From positions 1-47,284 of the forward strand of contig JARKRC010000030.1 in the NCBI GenBank assembly GCA_029974595.1: a DNA stretch of 47,284 nucleotides, given 5' to 3'. Position numbers and translations under genes: made by a program. Source of the stretch: Ereboglobus sp. (GTDB lineage Bacteria > Verrucomicrobiota > Verrucomicrobiia > Opitutales > Opitutaceae). The notes under the pieces were generated by a model. That model was not told the DNA's origin and did no database searches. It worked only from the letters and a program-made list of their open reading frames with translations. Positions 5,954 to 12,452 of this stretch are shown here, in pieces (within the stretch, counting starts at the first letter, position 1; every line of letters starts with the position of its first letter).

Positions 5954-6733
5954 ATGCCCAAGCTCACCACGCACGCCATTCGAAAACTAAAAGGACAGCG
6001 CCCCATCGTCGCCGTCACGGCCTACGACGCGCTCACCGCGCGTTACGCAAACGAGGCCGGCGTGGACATCATCCTCGTCGGCGATTCGATGGGCAACGTG
6101 ATGCTCGGCTTTGAAAACACCGTGCCCGTCACGCTCGACATGATGTGCCACCATGCCGCCGCTGTCGTGCGCGCGCGTCCCGAAGCCCTCGTCGCCGTCG
6201 ACCTGCCCTTCGGCGAAGCCCATTACTGTTTTGATCGTGTGCTCGCCTCATGCCAGCGCATCGTGCAGGAAACCGGAGCCGATGCCGTGAAGATCGAAGG
6301 GGGCGCGGAGATCGCCCCCATGCTCGAAAAACTCAACAACGCCGGCATACCCGTGTGGGGCCACATCGGCCTGCGTCCGCAGCAAGTGCTCGCGCTCGGT
6401 CGCTACAAAAAATTCGGCGCGACGCCGGATGAAGCCGGATCGATGCTCTCCGACGCCCTCGCGCTCGAAAAAGCGGGTGTCTTCGCGCTTCTCATTGAAA
6501 TGACGGACCATGAATGCGCGCGCAAAATCGCCGGCGAGGTTTCCGTGCCTGTCATTGGCATTGGCGCCGGTCCGCATTGCGACGGACAGATTCTGGTTTC
6601 CCCCGATCTCCTCGGCCTGACCTCCGACTACGTTCCCGCCTTCGTGCAAAAATTCGCCGACGCCGCTGCGGAATATCGAAAAGGTTTTGCCGCTTACGCC
6701 GCGGCCGTTCGCGAGAGGAGGTTTCCGGAATAG
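5954..6733 (+). CDS. panB: 3-methyl-2-oxobutanoate hydroxymethyltransferase
   Basis: The 259-aa protein is the TIM-barrel, Mg-dependent enzyme that transfers a hydroxymethyl group from methylene-THF to 2-oxoisovalerate, making ketopantoate for pantothenate and CoA. It contains the signature 'AYDALTARYANEAGVDIILVG' region with metal ligand Asp in VGDSMG. 'VKIEGG', 'GHIGLRPQ' and the late 'IGIGAGPHCDGQILV' motif are also present. Length is typical. It is convergent with the transposase gene at 6784, 50 bp away. Confidence 0.95.
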   Translation: MPKLTTHAIRKLKGQRPIVAVTAYDALTARYANEAGVDIILVGDSMGNVMLGFENTVPVTLDMMCHHAAAVVRARPEALVAVDLPFGEAHYCFDRVLASCQRIVQETGADAVKIEGGAEIAPMLEKLNNAGIPVWGHIGLRPQQVLALGRYKKFGATPDEAGSMLSDALALEKAGVFALLIEMTDHECARKIAGEVSVPVIGIGAGPHCDGQILVSPDLLGLTSDYVPAFVQKFADAAAEYRKGFAAYAAAVRERRFPE

Positions 6734-6783: not shown

Positions 6784-7779
6784 TCACCCGAATGCCTTTT
6801 TGCGCAATCCGCGCAACGTGACCAGATCCCCCCAATCGGTGATGTTCGGCAAAGGACGCAGGGCGGTGCGTCTTCGATGTCCTGTCTGGCGCTTATAAAT
6901 AGCGAGGTGTTTTGCCACAAAGGCCTTGGAGCCAAGCACCGCTCCATCGGAAAAATACCGCACGCGGCAGCGCAATACCGTCGCGAGCGGAAGTGTGCCT
7001 TTTTCCGCGACGACTTTTTCAAGAGCCTCCGGTGAGATGGATACCTTGTCTCCACGCTGCGGCGCGGCAGCGCCGAAGAGCCGCATGCGATACGCATCGT
7101 GTACATTGCGCCAAGCCTGGTTGTTTTCATCGCCGACAATCGTGGCGATGCCAACCTGCGCGGCCCGTTTTCCCGCAACGGCCTCGGCATATCCGCAAAA
7201 GCGGTAGTCCTTCGAATCGACAACGAGGCCGGCGCGCACCGGATTCAAGTCGATATACGCCGCCATCGTTGAAAGAACATGGCCGCGGCCCTCGACGAGC
7301 ACGCTCTTGAAACGCTCCGACCAAAGCGTGCCGTGGCGGTCGTGCGTGCGGTTGAACCAGATTGAGAAGCGCTGTTTGAGCAGCTTCATGAATTGGGAGA
7401 CGTCGCCCATCAGGGCCATTTGTTGCTTGCGCCAAGAGTCCGCATCGGAACCGCCTTTTTTGAGACGGTCAGCGACCTCCTCGATGCGCGCCGCCTGGTA
7501 TTTTGTAGGTTTTGGGTAGAGCACGAGATAGCGGCGGAGTAGCTCAGTGTCCGAGACCGCGGCCCGTGCGGGCACACGAACGAGCACGTGAAAGTGGTTC
7601 GACATGATGGCGTAGGTGAGAATCTGGACGCCGCAGTAATCGGCGATTTGCCAAAGCTGTTTTCGGAACACCTCCTTGGCGGTATCGTCGAGGCAACGCT
7701 CGCTGTTCACGGTGCGCGACATGCAATGATAGACTGCCCCCGAGGAGCGAGGATCAATCTTGATGCGCGGTGCTCTCAT
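6784..7779 (-). CDS. REP-associated-type (RAYT, Y1/HUH) transposase
   Basis: The 331-aa protein (ATG at 7779; a TTG at 7806 would add nine residues) is an IS200/IS605-like Y1 transposase of the REP-associated group. The N-terminal 'SGAVYHCMSRT' and the HFH metal-binding motif at 62-64 (SNHFHVLV) are diagnostic. 'GTLWSERFKSVLVEG' followed by 'YIDLNPVRAGL' completes the catalytic domain. The C-terminal ~110 residues look DNA-binding and are unlike compact IS200 enzymes. Where RAYTs I remember read R-Y-x-x-Y-F-N, this one reads R-F-S-I-W-F-N, so the usual nucleophilic Tyr position seems to be Phe/Trp. No flanking IS ends are seen, consistent with a single-copy RAYT. Confidence 0.85.
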   Translation of the reverse strand: MRAPRIKIDPRSSGAVYHCMSRTVNSERCLDDTAKEVFRKQLWQIADYCGVQILTYAIMSNHFHVLVRVPARAAVSDTELLRRYLVLYPKPTKYQAARIEEVADRLKKGGSDADSWRKQQMALMGDVSQFMKLLKQRFSIWFNRTHDRHGTLWSERFKSVLVEGRGHVLSTMAAYIDLNPVRAGLVVDSKDYRFCGYAEAVAGKRAAQVGIATIVGDENNQAWRNVHDAYRMRLFGAAAPQRGDKVSISPEALEKVVAEKGTLPLATVLRCRVRYFSDGAVLGSKAFVAKHLAIYKRQTGHRRRTALRPLPNITDWGDLVTLRGLRKKAFG

Positions 7780-7889
7780 GCGCGGAACGAATTGCAGACG
7801 AATCAAATTGTCAAGATATTTTTAACCTGTCCCTTTTCTTTTATTAAAATCTTGTTGCCGTTTCTGTTTCTGCGTTCTGGATTTTGACG

Positions 7890-9047
7890 ATGTCATCCGC
7901 CTACCAAGTCATAGCCCGCAAATGGCGCCCCCAGACCTTTGACGACGTTGTCGGCCAGGACCACGTCGTCCGCACTCTCAAAAACGCCATCGCGCGCAAC
8001 CGCATCGCACACGCCTACCTCTTCGTCGGCCCGCGCGGCACCGGCAAAACTTCCACCGCCCGCATCTTCGCCAAGGCCCTCAACTGCACCAACGGCCCCA
8101 AAGCCGATTTCGACCCCAACGACCCCATCTGCAAAGCCATCGCCAGCGGCTCCCACATCGATGTGATCGAGTTTGACGCCGCCTCCAACACGCAGGTCGA
8201 TAAAATACGCGACGCCATTCTCGATTCCGTCGCCTACGCACCCGCCTCGGCAAAGTTCAAAATCTACATCATCGACGAGGTGCACATGCTCTCGGCAGGC
8301 TCCTTCAACGCCTTGCTCAAAACCCTCGAAGAGCCCCCTCCTCACGTGAAATTTGTTTTTGCGACCACCGATCCGCAAAAAATGCCCGCCACCGTCATCT
8401 CGCGATGCCAGCGCTTCGACCTCAAGCCCATCCCCAACGACCTCATCATCCAGCGTCTCAAACAAATCGGCGACGACGAAAAAATCACCGTCTCCGACGC
8501 CGCCTACGAATGCATCGCCCGCATGGCCGACGGCGGCATGCGCGACGCCCAATCCATCTTTGACCAGATGATTTCCTTCTGCGGCACCGACATCGAGGAA
8601 TCCGACGTGCTCGATGTCTACGGTCTCGTCTCGGGAGAAAAAATCGCCGCCCTCGCCGGGGCGCTCGCCGCCGGCGATCACCAGAAAATCATCGCCATCG
8701 TCGATGAGTGCGACCATCAGGGCCGCGACCTCGTGCGTCTTCTCAGCGACTTGCAAGCCGTCGTGCGCAGCGCCCTCATTGACGCCATCGCGCAAGGCGG
8801 CATCAGCGAAAAACTCGGCGGCACCAAAATGAGCACCGAGCAAATCACGCGCCTCCTCGACGGGCTTCGTGAAGGCGAGGACGCGGTGAAAATCGGCCTC
8901 GCCGAGAAAATCAATTTCGAGGTCACGCTCCTCAAGGCAGTCGAAGCCAGCCGCGCCCGCGCCATTGACTCGCTCATCAAGGAGCTCACCGCTCTCGCCG
9001 CCGAAAGCCCCGCGGCCGACACCAACAGCGAAAAAAAAAAGACCTGA
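7890..9047 (+). CDS. dnaX: DNA polymerase III clamp-loader subunit DnaX, gamma-length zero-frame product
   Basis: The zero-frame product is 385 aa from the ATG at 7890 ([12 protein letters not shown]; an upstream TTG adds two). It is an AAA+ clamp-loader ATPase. It has Walker [10 protein letters not shown] (47-55), Walker B '[10 protein letters not shown]', sensor 1 '[20 protein letters not shown]', and the helical lid and collar domain III to about residue 365. The family zinc module normally has four Cys. Here LNC is followed by ...DFDPNDPIC, so two of the four Cys positions appear to be Asp. The frame ends right after an A10 run, at a TGA, with the collar domain complete. The same strand continues in the -1 frame to 9532. 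Confidence 0.95.
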
Positions 9048-9070
9048 TTGAGACGCTTGAAGCGCGTCTC
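9031..9070 (+). promoter_or_regulatory. Programmed -1 frameshift cassette in dnaX (slippery A AAA AAG plus hairpin)
   Basis: The A10 run 9031-9040 followed by G gives the zero-frame heptamer A AAA AAG at 9035-9041, the slippery sequence of E. coli dnaX. Eight bases later a perfect 7-bp stem (gagacgc 9050-9056, gcgtctc 9064-9070) closes a 7-nt loop. The zero-frame stop TGA is at 9045-9047, inside the spacer. Slipping back one base continues into an open frame of 163 codons. A long A run also allows transcriptional slippage, as established for Thermus dnaX. No AGGAG lies within about 15 bases upstream. Confidence 0.85.
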
Positions 9071-9532
9071 GCGGTCGCACTCGCTGATTACAACGAAAAA
9101 GCAAAACGCGACCGCGAAAAAAGCGCGGCTATGCCTTTTATCGCGAGCAACCTCGGCGGCGGCACCGTCGCCAACAAGGTCGCGCACAAGATCGAGGAAA
9201 ATCGCGCCGCCGCCGAACAGTCGGATGCCGATGATGCCGTCGCACCGTATGCGTTGCACGAAAGCGCCGAGCCTTACGCTGGCGGCCAAACGACGGCAAA
9301 CGACGCTGGGTCTTTTGACGATGACGGCGCTCCTTGGCCCGATGGAGCGTCTGAGTCTGCCTTTCCCGCCGCCGCAGCCGCGATCGACAATGAGGAACAG
9401 GACTCGACGGACCTGCCGCCGCTCGACAGCCTCGTGTCGCGCATTCCGGAGGAAACGCGCAAAATACTCGACGAGGTGTTCCGCGCTCAATTCACAGGCG
9501 TGCGGAAAATTCCGAAAAAACTTCTCAAGTGA
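9041..9532 (+). CDS. dnaX: DnaX tau-specific C-terminal extension, -1 frame
   Basis: Read in the -1 frame from 9041, this gives 163 residues with no stop. It starts with an Ala/Glu-rich helix ([20 protein letters not shown]) and a linker that is acidic, Ala/Pro/Asp-rich and disordered-looking (about residues 55-120). It ends with a compact basic tail '[20 protein letters not shown]'. Joined to the gamma part it makes a tau of about 547 aa, within the normal range. Its role by analogy with known tau proteins is to contact the polymerase and DnaB helicase. Translation by itself from the ATG at 9131 is possible but lacks support. It ends 6 bp from the convergent cytochrome operon. Confidence 0.8.
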
Positions 9533-9538
9533 GAAGAC

Positions 9539-10249
9539 TCAATTGATCGCTTCCAATTCAGCCTGCGTCCACGGTTTGTTCCGCCCGGCGGCGCCCTTGG
9601 TGCGGATTTCAGTGACCGTTGCGGGATCAATGGCGGGTGCGTTATTGCCCCATTCCTGGCGGATGTAGGTCAGGACGTAGGCGATGTTTTCGTCGCTCCA
9701 ATTGTAGCCGCCGCCTTTGCCGAAGTTGGGCATCAGGCCGTTGTAAGTGGCGCCTTCGACCTTGAGTTCGCCGGTCAAGCCGTGCAGAAGGACGCGAATG
9801 AGACGTTGCTCGCTGCCGTTCACCCACTCCGATTTTGCAAGGGGAGGATAAACGCCAGGAACCCCCTGCCCCGTCCCTTGGTGGCAGGTGGCGCAGGTGC
9901 TGAAAAGTTTTTTGCCCTGGACAAGCGGATCGACCTTGGGCTTCGCGGGGCCGGCGCCGGTGTCCATCGCGGAGGTATAGCGCTCATCGTAAACGAGCGC
10001 GGCCTTGTTGAAGGTGATTTCGAGGCCGCCGCTGTTTCGTATGATGTAGGTGATCGCGAAGATCGTCATCGCGCCGACGAAGAGGAGAAGCCAGATGGGA
10101 ATCGGCCTGTTGCTCTCGGCGGGCTCGGATTTTTCCCGCAGCAGGATCGCGTGAACCTGCTGGATGTCGGCGTCGCTGGCGCGGGCTTGTTCGATGGTGA
10201 TGGCGTCGCGCGGCTCGCCGTCTTTCGGTTGCGGAGGTTGGTCGCTCAT
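9539..10249 (-). CDS. Membrane-anchored monoheme cytochrome c, third subunit of the cbb3-like oxidase
   Basis: The 236-aa protein has a cytoplasmic N-terminus (about 50 residues), one TM helix (about 50-71) and a periplasmic class I cytochrome domain. The domain has one CATCH heme site (C119, C122, H123) and a likely axial Met in 'LMPNFG'. It occupies the place of CcoP or FixP but has one heme where CcoP has two. Its start overlaps the ccoO stop by four bases (ATGA), so the two are translationally coupled. It is the last gene of the operon. Its likely job is to carry electrons from ActE/ActA or a soluble cytochrome to CcoO. Confidence 0.85.
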   Translation of the reverse strand: MSDQPPQPKDGEPRDAITIEQARASDADIQQVHAILLREKSEPAESNRPIPIWLLLFVGAMTIFAITYIIRNSGGLEITFNKAALVYDERYTSAMDTGAGPAKPKVDPLVQGKKLFSTCATCHQGTGQGVPGVYPPLAKSEWVNGSEQRLIRVLLHGLTGELKVEGATYNGLMPNFGKGGGYNWSDENIAYVLTYIRQEWGNNAPAIDPATVTEIRTKGAAGRNKPWTQAELEAIN

Positions 10250-10947
10250 TTGGCAGGCTCCGTTGTCGGCGCGGCGGCGCCGCTGGTTTCGGATGCAGGC
10301 TCGGGCTCGGTCACGATGTAACGCGATTCCTGCGGGTAAGTGTAACTGTCGTTAAGGGAAAGGAGATACTCGATGAGGGCGTCGGCGCGGCGCGTGGGCA
10401 CGATTTCGTAACCCAGGGGCGGTTGGTAATCCGCGGGGAGCAGCCTTTGAATGGCATGAGGCGAGGGCTGGCCGACGATCTTACGTGTTTCAAAGAGGAA
10501 AGCGAAGTGCGGCATGATGCTGCCGGGCGAGGTGATCTGCGGATCGTAGAAATGGCGGATGTGCCATTCGCGTCCGCTTTCGCCGACGTAGCGGGCGCCG
10601 ACGTTGCGGAGATCGGGGCCGGTGCGCATGGTGCCGAGGAGGACGCGGCCTTCGCGGATGTAGTCGCGCGCGACGCTTTGCCGGTCGCCCCATCCGCGCT
10701 TGTCATCAACGCCGAAGCCGGGGCGACGCACTTGCTGCGTGTGGCAGTAGATGCAACCGAGGTCTTCGTAAACGCGCTTGCCCTGCATCGCGAGACCGGT
10801 GGGCGTGAGCGGAAAGGTCTTGCCCTCCGTTTCGTCATAGACGGGCGTGAGCTTGCCGTAGCTGATCTGGTTGATGAGCACGATGCCCGTCCAGGAAAAG
10901 GCGAGCGTCATGAAGATGCCGAGGAAGAGAAGCGGTGCGCGGTTCAT
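10246..10947 (-). CDS. ccoO: cbb3-type cytochrome c oxidase subunit II, monoheme
   Basis: The 233-aa protein has one N-terminal TM helix (about 6-27) and a periplasmic c-type heme domain. Its CIYCH motif (C65, C68, H69) is followed by the CcoO-type 'TQQVRRPGFG', 'RGWGDRQSVARDY', 'GTMRTGPDLRNVG' and 'SPGSIMPHF', where the Met is the probable axial ligand. These signatures are specific to CcoO/FixO. A Pro/Glu/Ala-rich tail follows. The start overlaps the ccoN stop (ATGA) and the stop overlaps the next gene the same way, so the three oxidase subunits are coupled. Confidence 0.92.
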   Translation of the reverse strand: MNRAPLLFLGIFMTLAFSWTGIVLINQISYGKLTPVYDETEGKTFPLTPTGLAMQGKRVYEDLGCIYCHTQQVRRPGFGVDDKRGWGDRQSVARDYIREGRVLLGTMRTGPDLRNVGARYVGESGREWHIRHFYDPQITSPGSIMPHFAFLFETRKIVGQPSPHAIQRLLPADYQPPLGYEIVPTRRADALIEYLLSLNDSYTYPQESRYIVTEPEPASETSGAAAPTTEPAK

Positions 10948-12452
10948 TTGGCGGCGAGCTCCATTTCTTCAGGGTTGCGGAAAAGCGTGGGAGCGCTGCT
11001 TTGGGAGACGGGTTTTTTGGAGAGCATCCAGAAAAAGTTCACCGCGAAGGCGAGATGGCCGACGGTGATCAAAATGCCGGCGACGCTGCGCGAGAAGAGA
11101 TACGGGATCGTCGCCTCGACGACTTGCAGTACCGTATAGGTGACGGAACCGTCGGGGCTGGTGTGGTTCATCATGAGGCCCTGAACGACGCCGCCGATGG
11201 AGAGACCGACCACGTAGACCATCGAGCCGACCGCGGTGGCCCAGAAGTGCGTGCGGATGAGCGTGGCGTTGGGCCACTCGCGGAGGAGGATGCGCGGCAG
11301 GATGTAATAAATGGCGCCAAACATGACCATCGTGAAAAACGCATACATGCCGTGGTGCGCGTGCGCGACGACGAAGTGCGTGAAGTGGAGCGTCTCGCTG
11401 ACACTCCGCGCGGCCATGAGCGAGCCGATGAGGCTGGTGAGCGTGTAGTTCACGGCGCCAAAAACGATGAAGCGAAGCGTCGGGCTGTATTTGAGCGCGG
11501 AAAAGCTGCCGATCATCGTGAGGTGATGATTGATGCCGGTGACGACCACGGGAACGACCATCATGAAGCTGGCGGCGATGCCGGCGGTGATGACCCACGC
11601 GGGAACAGGGCCGCCCACGAGGTGATGGACGCCGGCCCAGTTATAAAAGATGGCGAGCGACCAGAAGCCGAGGATGGAGAGGTAGTAGCTGTGTATTGGT
11701 TTTCCCAATACCTTGGGGAGAAAATAATAGACCGAGGCGAGCCCGATGGGCGTGAACCAGAGGCCGAGCACGTTGTGGCCGAACCACCAGTTGACGAGCG
11801 CCTGCACGGTGCCGCGGGCCGGCGCGAAGATGATCATCATCTGCGCAACGGAGTAGAGCCACGGAAACCAGAAAAGCGCGGCGAGGATATACCATTGCGA
11901 AACGTAGATGTGCTTTGATTTTCCGTAGCGAAACGTGATGACCGCCCAAGCGCCGACGAGCGCGTAGGCGATGAAGAGGAGCGGCGTGGCGTAGGTCGGC
12001 ATTTCGAGCCACTCGACCGAGGTGGAGTCGCCCTTGAGGATGCCGATGATGCCGATGGTCACGCCGATGTTCCAGAGCGCGACGGCAAAAAGCAGGATGC
12101 CGCCGTGCCGGACCACAGAGCGCGAAAGGCGGGCCATGAGCCAGAATGCGACGCCGACGGCGGCGTTGGTCGCCCAGCCGTAAATGACGGCATTGAGATG
12201 CGCGGTGCGGGCGCGCCCGAAGGTGAGCCATTCGATGTCGCCGAGGAATCCCGGCGAATGGAGCTTGTAGGAGGAGATGATCGCGAAGGCCGTCCCCACG
12301 ATGAGCCAGAGCACGGCTGACACGAGGAAAAGCATGAGCGGCGCGCGCGTGGAGGCGTCGATTTCGCTCAGCTCGGCGCGCGCGGCAATGTCAGCCCGGG
12401 CGCCTGGCTTGAACGAGGCGACGATGGTTGGTGTTGAGGGTTGCTCGGACAT
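10944..12452 (-). CDS. ccoN: cbb3-type (C-family) heme-copper oxidase catalytic subunit I
   Basis: This 502-aa protein has about 12 TM helices and reduces O2 to water at a heme b3-CuB centre. Visible ligands are H85 (RTAHLN, heme b), H226 (WWFGHN, CuB), H276-H277 (AGVHHL, CuB), H364 (heme b3) and H366 (heme b) in VVAHAHHG. Y270 in the helix just before AGVHHL sits where the C-family cross-linked Tyr lies, which separates it from A-family oxidases. Where canonical CcoN, as I remember it, reads F-E-G-P-M-M, this protein reads L-I-G-S-L-M (341-346), so the conserved Glu is Ile342. The N-terminal ~35 residues are an extra cytoplasmic segment. Confidence 0.92.
   Translation of the reverse strand: MSEQPSTPTIVASFKPGARADIAARAELSEIDASTRAPLMLFLVSAVLWLIVGTAFAIISSYKLHSPGFLGDIEWLTFGRARTAHLNAVIYGWATNAAVGVAFWLMARLSRSVVRHGGILLFAVALWNIGVTIGIIGILKGDSTSVEWLEMPTYATPLLFIAYALVGAWAVITFRYGKSKHIYVSQWYILAALFWFPWLYSVAQMMIIFAPARGTVQALVNWWFGHNVLGLWFTPIGLASVYYFLPKVLGKPIHSYYLSILGFWSLAIFYNWAGVHHLVGGPVPAWVITAGIAASFMMVVPVVVTGINHHLTMIGSFSALKYSPTLRFIVFGAVNYTLTSLIGSLMAARSVSETLHFTHFVVAHAHHGMYAFFTMVMFGAIYYILPRILLREWPNATLIRTHFWATAVGSMVYVVGLSIGGVVQGLMMNHTSPDGSVTYTVLQVVEATIPYLFSRSVAGILITVGHLAFAVNFFWMLSKKPVSQSSAPTLFRNPEEMELAAK

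Follow-up and report, generated by a model that had tools for sequence, protein, structure and literature searches.

In the stretch of an Ereboglobus sp. genome that we analysed (the window: 47,284 nucleotides, contig JARKRC010000030.1 of assembly GCA_029974595.1), dnaX consists of two open reading frames (ORFs) that meet at a run of ten A. How might such a gene yield both a short product (gamma) and a long one (tau), and would the ribosome or the RNA polymerase do the slipping? There is precedent for both. Escherichia coli dnaX undergoes ribosomal frameshifting with a conserved stem and a Shine-Dalgarno (SD)-like element, according to the relevant sections of PMC5009743, PMC4066793, and PMC3711429, and Thermus thermophilus dnaX undergoes transcriptional slippage at A9 (sections on dnaX in PMC1088944 and PMC5009743). 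For dnaX genes in which tau comes from the shift, the question is still open in print. The part of the GeneTack study (Antonov et al. 2013; PMC3711429) that deals with two-ORF dnaX reports 17 genes from 12 genera, all −1 and nine of them with A10, and proposes transcriptional realignment, while the corresponding part of a 2016 review (PMC5009743) counts genes of this kind as ribosomal-frameshift candidates. The initial annotation of the window favored an E. coli–type −1 ribosomal cassette with a stimulatory hairpin and offered transcriptional slippage as a second option.

Anatomy of dnaX in the window

The first ORF (7890..9047, forward strand) would encode a gamma-like product of 385 residues, with a predicted ATG start and an alternative TTG start at 7884. 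It matches NCBIfam TIGR02397 (dnaX_nterm) with an E value of 4.6e-126 and the Pfam families DNA_pol3_delta2, DNAX_ATPase_lid, and DNA_pol3_gamma3. The A10 run, which is the proposed RNA polymerase slippage site, occupies 9031..9040 on the forward strand and is followed by a G at 9041. Since the zero-frame codons from 9030 are GAA AAA AAA AAG ACC TGA, the A_AAA_AAG heptamer at 9035..9041 (X_XXY_YYZ type), a possible extra ribosomal slip site, is in phase. The eleven letters 3′ of the run, GACCTGATTGA, contain both the zero-frame TGA (9045..9047), which would end gamma, and a TGA closing the +1 frame (9049..9051), so −1 is the sole open frame past the run. The −1 ORF (9041..9532, same strand), which would provide the tau-specific C-terminal tail, is open for 163 codons (9041-9529) and stops at a TGA (9530-9532). 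A stem with seven of seven Watson-Crick pairs and a 7-nt loop (9050..9070; arms 9050-9056/9064-9070) starts eight bases past G 9041, and its role is doubtful. All four elements named in the initial annotation, namely the A10-G run with its in-phase heptamer, the zero-frame stop between heptamer and hairpin, the perfect 7-bp hairpin eight bases downstream, and the −1 frame of 163 codons, are thus where they had been placed. As in the GeneTack genes, two dnaX ORFs are linked by a −1 change at a poly-A run.

The neighboring genes include panB (ketopantoate hydroxymethyltransferase; 5954-6733, forward strand) and, just upstream of dnaX and divergent from it, a gene for a protein with an IS200-like Y1 transposase domain (6784-7806, reverse strand; Pfam Y1_Tnp, E 3.9e-14), possibly of the REP-associated single-copy type. 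Convergent with dnaX is a group of genes like those of a cbb3 cytochrome oxidase (COX1, FixO, and cytochrome c; 9539-12452, reverse strand). With 86% identity in its best matching segment, Ereboglobus sp. PH5-10 is the nearest named relative of the window genome; it belongs to an anaerobic gut lineage.

Rarity of the run and its conservation in Opitutaceae

The run at dnaX is the sole A10/T10 occurrence in the 4,074,106-base assembly of the window organism, in a pattern search whose built-in control is void for homopolymer A. A first-order Markov estimate predicts 0.16 runs of at least ten A or T in the 47-kb window and, scaled to the whole assembly, about 14 A10/T10 runs, compared to the one found. 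Chance does not account for the run in the window. We searched 31 Opitutaceae genomes for A10/T10 and assigned matches to dnaX by hand via their coordinates. This showed that A10 is present at dnaX in 26 of the 31 genomes and is the sole such run in 18; none was found in G007 and G040, and the matches in G009, G018, and G037 lie away from dnaX. In 80 dnaX loci (521,679 nt), 79 of the 80 runs of at least nine A or T are the dnaX runs, with 3.7 runs expected by chance. Three other genomes of the genus also have A10 (L006; L004, the same place as L033; and L005, the same place as L035).

We then compared dnaX across the family, using 152 sequences (77 from whole genomes and 75 from genome contigs), two of which (L177 and L083) end before the run, leaving 150. 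Sequences showing no difference in the first 900 nt of the dnaX match were merged; G084 and G067, whose matches run into a contig end, and G075, which coincides with L107, were left out. Related sequences remain and the counts below are therefore non-independent; a stricter merge, which removed 7 of the 150 and left 143, altered no proportion of importance. A run of 9 to 11 A is found at the dnaX site in 150/150, while AAA makes up 833 of the 2,806 Lys codons in the same genes. A tail HMM assigns the tau tail to −1 in 148/150 sequences (141/143 after the stricter merge) and to frame 0 in the other two. Conservation of the −1 frame in relatives, a check suggested by the initial annotation, hence holds for all but two of the family's sequences, and its claim that one gene gives two products gains strong support, from conservation, as recoding at the A run. 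Since the same A9-A10 structure with a −1 tail recurs in 148 of the 150 sequences, the two-ORF structure is, as judged by comparison of sequences, not a sequencing slip.

Two features of the run and its surroundings bear on the mechanism. The run is longer in every sequence than the heptamer requires, at least nine A's being kept where six are needed. Moreover, among the 148 −1-type sequences, the run is followed by G in 123 and by C in 25, and these 25 are therefore without A_AAA_AAG, yet keep the −1 tail. The stops are conserved as well. The zero-frame stop is found at the window's offset from the run in 135/148, and the +1 stop at the window's position (offset +8) in 86/148 and within 29 nt in 144/148. 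In 146/150 sequences, stops shut each of the other two frames no further than 30 nt past the run; when measured in this way inside the tails, the share is 4% (Opitutaceae) and 10% (other Opitutales). The +1 TGA is formed at the first Ile codon of the tail, which is ATT in 82 of 98 sequences and ATT-GA in 80 of those 82; for comparison, 21% of the Ile codons of these genes (837 of 3,918) are ATT, as are 143 of the 422 located elsewhere in the tails. Three sequences have AGT-GA (Ser) at this site, a different amino acid with the same +1 stop. We give no p-value for this bias because the sequences are related. Whereas −1 ribosomal shifting gains nothing from a +1 stop, slippage would open a third frame, which this stop closes.

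According to the initial annotation, relatives with one uninterrupted frame would speak against recoding. A few such relatives exist (L203, A11; L053, A10; and L238, A11), but in them, too, stops shut the other two frames no more than 30 nt from the run, so that they look like the Thermus arrangement and leave recoding unrefuted.

The tail as a protein

The −1 tail is, by its pattern of conservation, a real protein under protein-level constraint. It is conserved from its first codons, with Leu at codon 2 in 138/147 sequences, and further Leu and Arg positions show synonymous changes (e.g., TTG/CTG/CTT/CTC). Conservation starting at the first tail codons favors a fusion and disfavors a separate downstream start; the tail HMM, the codon pattern, and the alignment all show a second ORF that is conserved and fused in relatives. 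In an alignment of 32 tails, the conserved end is approximately LPPLDELVxRIPxxVRExLDELFRAKFVxVRRVPxKALK. The initial annotation had described a tau-like basic tail, which is correct for the last stretch, the window tail as a whole being acidic (31 D+E vs. 18 K+R). No Pfam or NCBIfam family matches the window tail at E ≤ 1, a profile search of solved structures with the tail returned just two designed proteins (E 0.14 and 0.16), and an Rfam scan of the window at the gathering threshold gave no match. From its place in the gene, the tail would do the work of the C-terminal part of tau.

Hairpin, SD-like element, and lysine tRNAs

Conservation of the stem in relatives was another check suggested by the initial annotation, and here the outcome was negative. 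At the window's stem positions, 7/7 pairs form in 2 of 148 Opitutaceae sequences and six in another 2, with a mean of 3.03, compared to means of 2.6-3.7 for control arms shifted by whole codons. In a 32-sequence alignment, 53.6% of the stem cells are paired, vs. up to 60.3% when the partner is slid (+3). Of 500 column shuffles, 9 reach the stem's number of paired cells and 8 its covariation score, a control that, per the tool, related sequences can pass without structure. RNAalifold on 110 sequences found no structure, and likewise none for column-shuffled versions, and so carries no weight either way. Folding is slightly stronger near the run, with a shuffle z of −0.45 just past it vs. −0.10 at +100, and a second scan gave −0.44 at +10 vs. 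−0.10 to −0.30 further on. A dip in folding energy 20-65 nt past the run (mean −16.1 vs. about −13.9) accompanies higher G+C, with a z of −0.19. The hairpin as a conserved stimulator was thus rejected by fixed-position pairing, by folding energy along the tail, and by pair counting, and no downstream stem-loop of the E. coli type is conserved across the family. Within the genus, L035 keeps 7/7 pairs with one two-sided change, and L033 and L006 share an A-C mismatch; the stem may still have a role confined to the genus.

No SD-like element is visible just upstream of the run in the window, and in the family the five-mers AGGAG/GGAGG/AGGGA occur upstream in just 12/148 sequences and the four-mers GGAG/GAGG/AGGA in just 36/148. 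The assembly encodes both tRNA-Lys(CUU) (ctt) and tRNA-Lys(UUU) (ttt), rather than the single lysine tRNA reading both AAA and AAG that goes with the E. coli system. Thermus also has two lysine tRNAs, and the section of PMC5009743 on this gene offers the second as a possible reason for slippage there.

Frame drift across Opitutales

We wondered how the frame of the tail behaves in the rest of the order. For Opitutales outside Opitutaceae, all 86 matches were obtained, and a run of at least nine A is found at the same place in dnaX in 71 of them, in 20 of 24 families. The families without such a run are f6, f7, f25, and f27. These have genomes of about 0.8-1.3 Mb (f6 is represented by L268 and f7 by L263 and L264), and f26, with equally small genomes, keeps A9. 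Three loci at contig ends (L239, L250, and L242) were dropped, reducing the 71 to 68 usable loci, and L265 and L275 (A7) and L224 (A8) were likewise left out of the frame counts.

Of the 68 usable loci, 27 carry the tau tail in −1, 25 carry it in 0, and 16 carry it in +1. A tail HMM, built from Opitutaceae tails and then iterated (7 of the +1 loci were supported before iteration), matches 58 of the 68, of which 24 are in −1, 22 in 0, and 12 in +1; the 10 loci without a match are L223, L127, L121, L255, L269 (measured at the second of its two A9 runs), and L274, together with four of the five f16 loci. The HMM agrees with ORF length except in L258, which moved from −1 to 0, and the longest-ORF frame calls for L216 and L258 were replaced by the HMM calls. 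L216 (C212) comes from genome bin G033, which has 7% contamination and a second dnaX locus, L204 (C13), and is probably a mixed bin. The homologous tail is thus found in all three frames after the same run. In 58/68 of these loci, and in 204/218 sequences overall, each of the other two frames meets a stop no more than 30 nt past the run.

The frame has changed often and the run seldom. On one maximum-likelihood tree, quickly built from the 365 N-terminal residues of 118 sequences (SH-aLRT support only, several long branches), we counted at least 14 changes of tau frame among 94 sequences, and also 14 among the 83 supported by the HMM, vs. 4 changes of run presence. Some sister loci are one A apart: L118 (A9) is in frame 0 and L221 (A10) in +1, while L238 (A11) is in frame 0 and L242 (A10) was read as −1, although a contig end cuts it. 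Since the +1 members include single-contig genomes (L128 of G187 and L133 of G130), assembly error is unlikely for the +1 form. Two traits of transcriptional slippage are therefore present, i.e., an A/T run of about nine or more that is kept (150/150 in Opitutaceae, 71/86 in the others) and a direction unfixed among orthologues, which is seen across the order (−1, 0, and +1), Opitutaceae alone being in −1 in 148/150.

Outside the order, we examined 15 of 23 class-level matches and 16 of 75 phylum-level matches, the latter chosen partly for short open frames. None of the 15 class-level matches examined has a comparable A run in dnaX. Among the 16 at phylum level, 13 have no run at this place (L282 has A9 further on, and L288 is cut soon after), and the other three, all members of family f41, combine A10 and a tail in −1. 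All 11 f41 genomes searched (L331-L341), those three among them, share A9-A10 and a −1 tail, with both other frames closed within about 70 nt. The two-ORF form therefore occurs in a further class of the phylum as well. The f41 tails are not matched by the tail HMM, and the f41 gene may have either a separate origin or a deep inheritance.

Discussion

The window gene is likely to be a two-ORF gene decoded by programmed transcriptional slippage, as judged from sequence comparisons, its A10 run very probably making the copying enzyme stutter and so giving a short and a long protein from one gene. The RNA polymerase would stutter on A10, so that the number of A's varies among the mRNAs. With 10 or 13 A, a transcript would give a short product ending at the zero-frame TGA, and with 9 or 12 A a near-identical one ending at the +1 TGA four bases on, whereas 11, 8, or 14 A would bring the tail into frame and yield tau (547, 546, or 548 residues, respectively). 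The predicted products are thus 385-387 residues long, ending in KKT or KRPD, and 546-548 residues long. That slippage occurs, its direction and rate, and the use of both products are what we infer from these data. The second option of the initial annotation is therefore the better of its two readings, while its lead reading is not supported, the stem being unconserved, the run over-long, and tau lying in three frames across the order. Section 10 of PMC3711429 takes a conserved direction among orthologues as a sign of ribosomal frameshifting and a mixed one as a sign of transcriptional slippage, and by that criterion the mixed frames place dnaX of the order with transcriptional slippage, whereas Opitutaceae alone would look fixed. 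Since both mechanisms would give the same commonest tau junction (EKKKDLIE), the junction peptide that the initial annotation proposed to look for would not discriminate between them, but the C terminus of gamma would: genomic gamma is predicted to end in EKKKT, and the ends EKKRPD and EKKKRPD would arise only from A9 or A12 transcripts or from a +1 shift.

It is improbable that uniform transcripts are read by E. coli–like −1 ribosomal frameshifting at A_AAA_AAG, aided by the hairpin, to make tau. The heptamer in phase, a perfect stem at a plausible distance, the intact stem of L035, the −1 direction in 148/150 Opitutaceae sequences, a stem that exceeds column shuffles (9/500 and 8/500), the slightly stronger folding just past the run (z −0.45 vs. 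−0.10), and the listing of reversed dnaX genes as ribosomal candidates in the pertinent part of PMC5009743 speak for this mechanism. However, 2/148 sequences pair 7/7, mean pairing (3.0) is within that of shifted arms (2.6-3.7), sliding raises the share of paired cells from 53.6% to as much as 60.3%, and L033 and L006 of the same genus have a mismatch. Moreover, SD-like five-mers and four-mers are scarce (12/148 and 36/148), the A's beyond the heptamer are always kept, C replaces G after the run in 25/148, a tRNA-Lys(CUU) is encoded in the assembly, and −1 shifting is unable to make tau in the +1 loci. A combination, with ancestral transcriptional slippage and some additional tau from ribosomal slippage at A_AAA_AAG in Opitutaceae, is unlikely as well. 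The A10-G of most Opitutaceae sequences does keep the shift-prone heptamer in phase, and the nearly uniform direction (148/150) together with G after 123/148 runs would fit a ribosomal share, but the 25/148 sequences with C have no A_AAA_AAG and keep their −1 tail, and neither the hairpin nor the SD-like element is conserved.

Phase variation at the DNA level, in which replication slippage in the run toggles tau in subpopulations, would explain why sister loci differ in run length and frame, but one phase is common to 148/150 Opitutaceae sequences and the fixed closure of the third frame is unpredicted. Tau is also expected to be necessary for replication, and we regard phase variation as highly improbable. 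The chance that the run reflects an assembly or sequencing error, or that the gene has decayed, is negligible. Homopolymers are error-prone and most of the named relatives are metagenome-assembled genomes, but the same structure is present in many genomes, including the single-contig G003, G004, G049, and G013 and CP011265.1 (L107), and the tail is under protein-level constraint. Transcriptional slippage itself has counterpoints in the 4/150 and 10/68 sequences in which both other frames are not closed within 30 nt, in the four families without a run of at least nine A, and in counts that are non-independent because the loci are related.

Parts of this arrangement are already known, as a two-ORF dnaX with −1 at A10 (two-ORF section of PMC3711429) and as slippage at A9 in Thermus dnaX (dnaX sections of PMC1088944 and PMC5009743). 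The window gene is therefore a further case of a known arrangement, like the GeneTack genes in having gamma from the first ORF, tau via a −1 change, and A10, and an Opitutales member may be among the published A10 genes. Unlike that set, for which the section consulted reports only −1, Opitutales also have +1 and zero-frame members with the same run. The accessible text of the literature searched on dnaX frameshifting and slippage holds no description of Opitutales dnaX, and order-wide frame drift with a +1 two-ORF dnaX was not found in it either. Going by the descriptions in these sources, the window gene shares with T. thermophilus dnaX a late A run, nearby stops in the other frames, and two lysine tRNAs, but the roles are reversed, tau being the genomic zero frame and gamma the slippage product in Thermus. 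With E. coli it shares A_AAA_AAG, a downstream stem, and gamma and tau from one gene; the differences lie in the run (A9 or longer here), the stem (conserved only in the E. coli system), the SD-like element (a feature of E. coli), the number of lysine tRNAs (one in E. coli, two here), and the product of the shift (gamma in E. coli, tau here). The closest parallel for opposite directions among orthologues at a transcriptional realignment site is the −1 and +1 clusters of IS630-family transposases in section 10 of PMC3711429, but these are genes of mobile elements and dnaX is a core replication gene.

These findings suggest that the slippage site of Opitutales dnaX is probably frame-free, the gene architecture (one ORF, −1, or +1) having switched at least 14 times while selection would have maintained the run and the closed state of the other two frames. 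With all three frames provided by the RNA polymerase, gain or loss of an A in the DNA run would be nearly free of cost. The order offers a natural collection of considerable size for which the predictions of ribosomal and of transcriptional recoding are opposed. In Opitutales genomes, automatic annotation is likely to report a truncated tau, and the picture suggested is one of a core replication gene that lets its DNA reading frame drift, with the polymerase restoring the frame.
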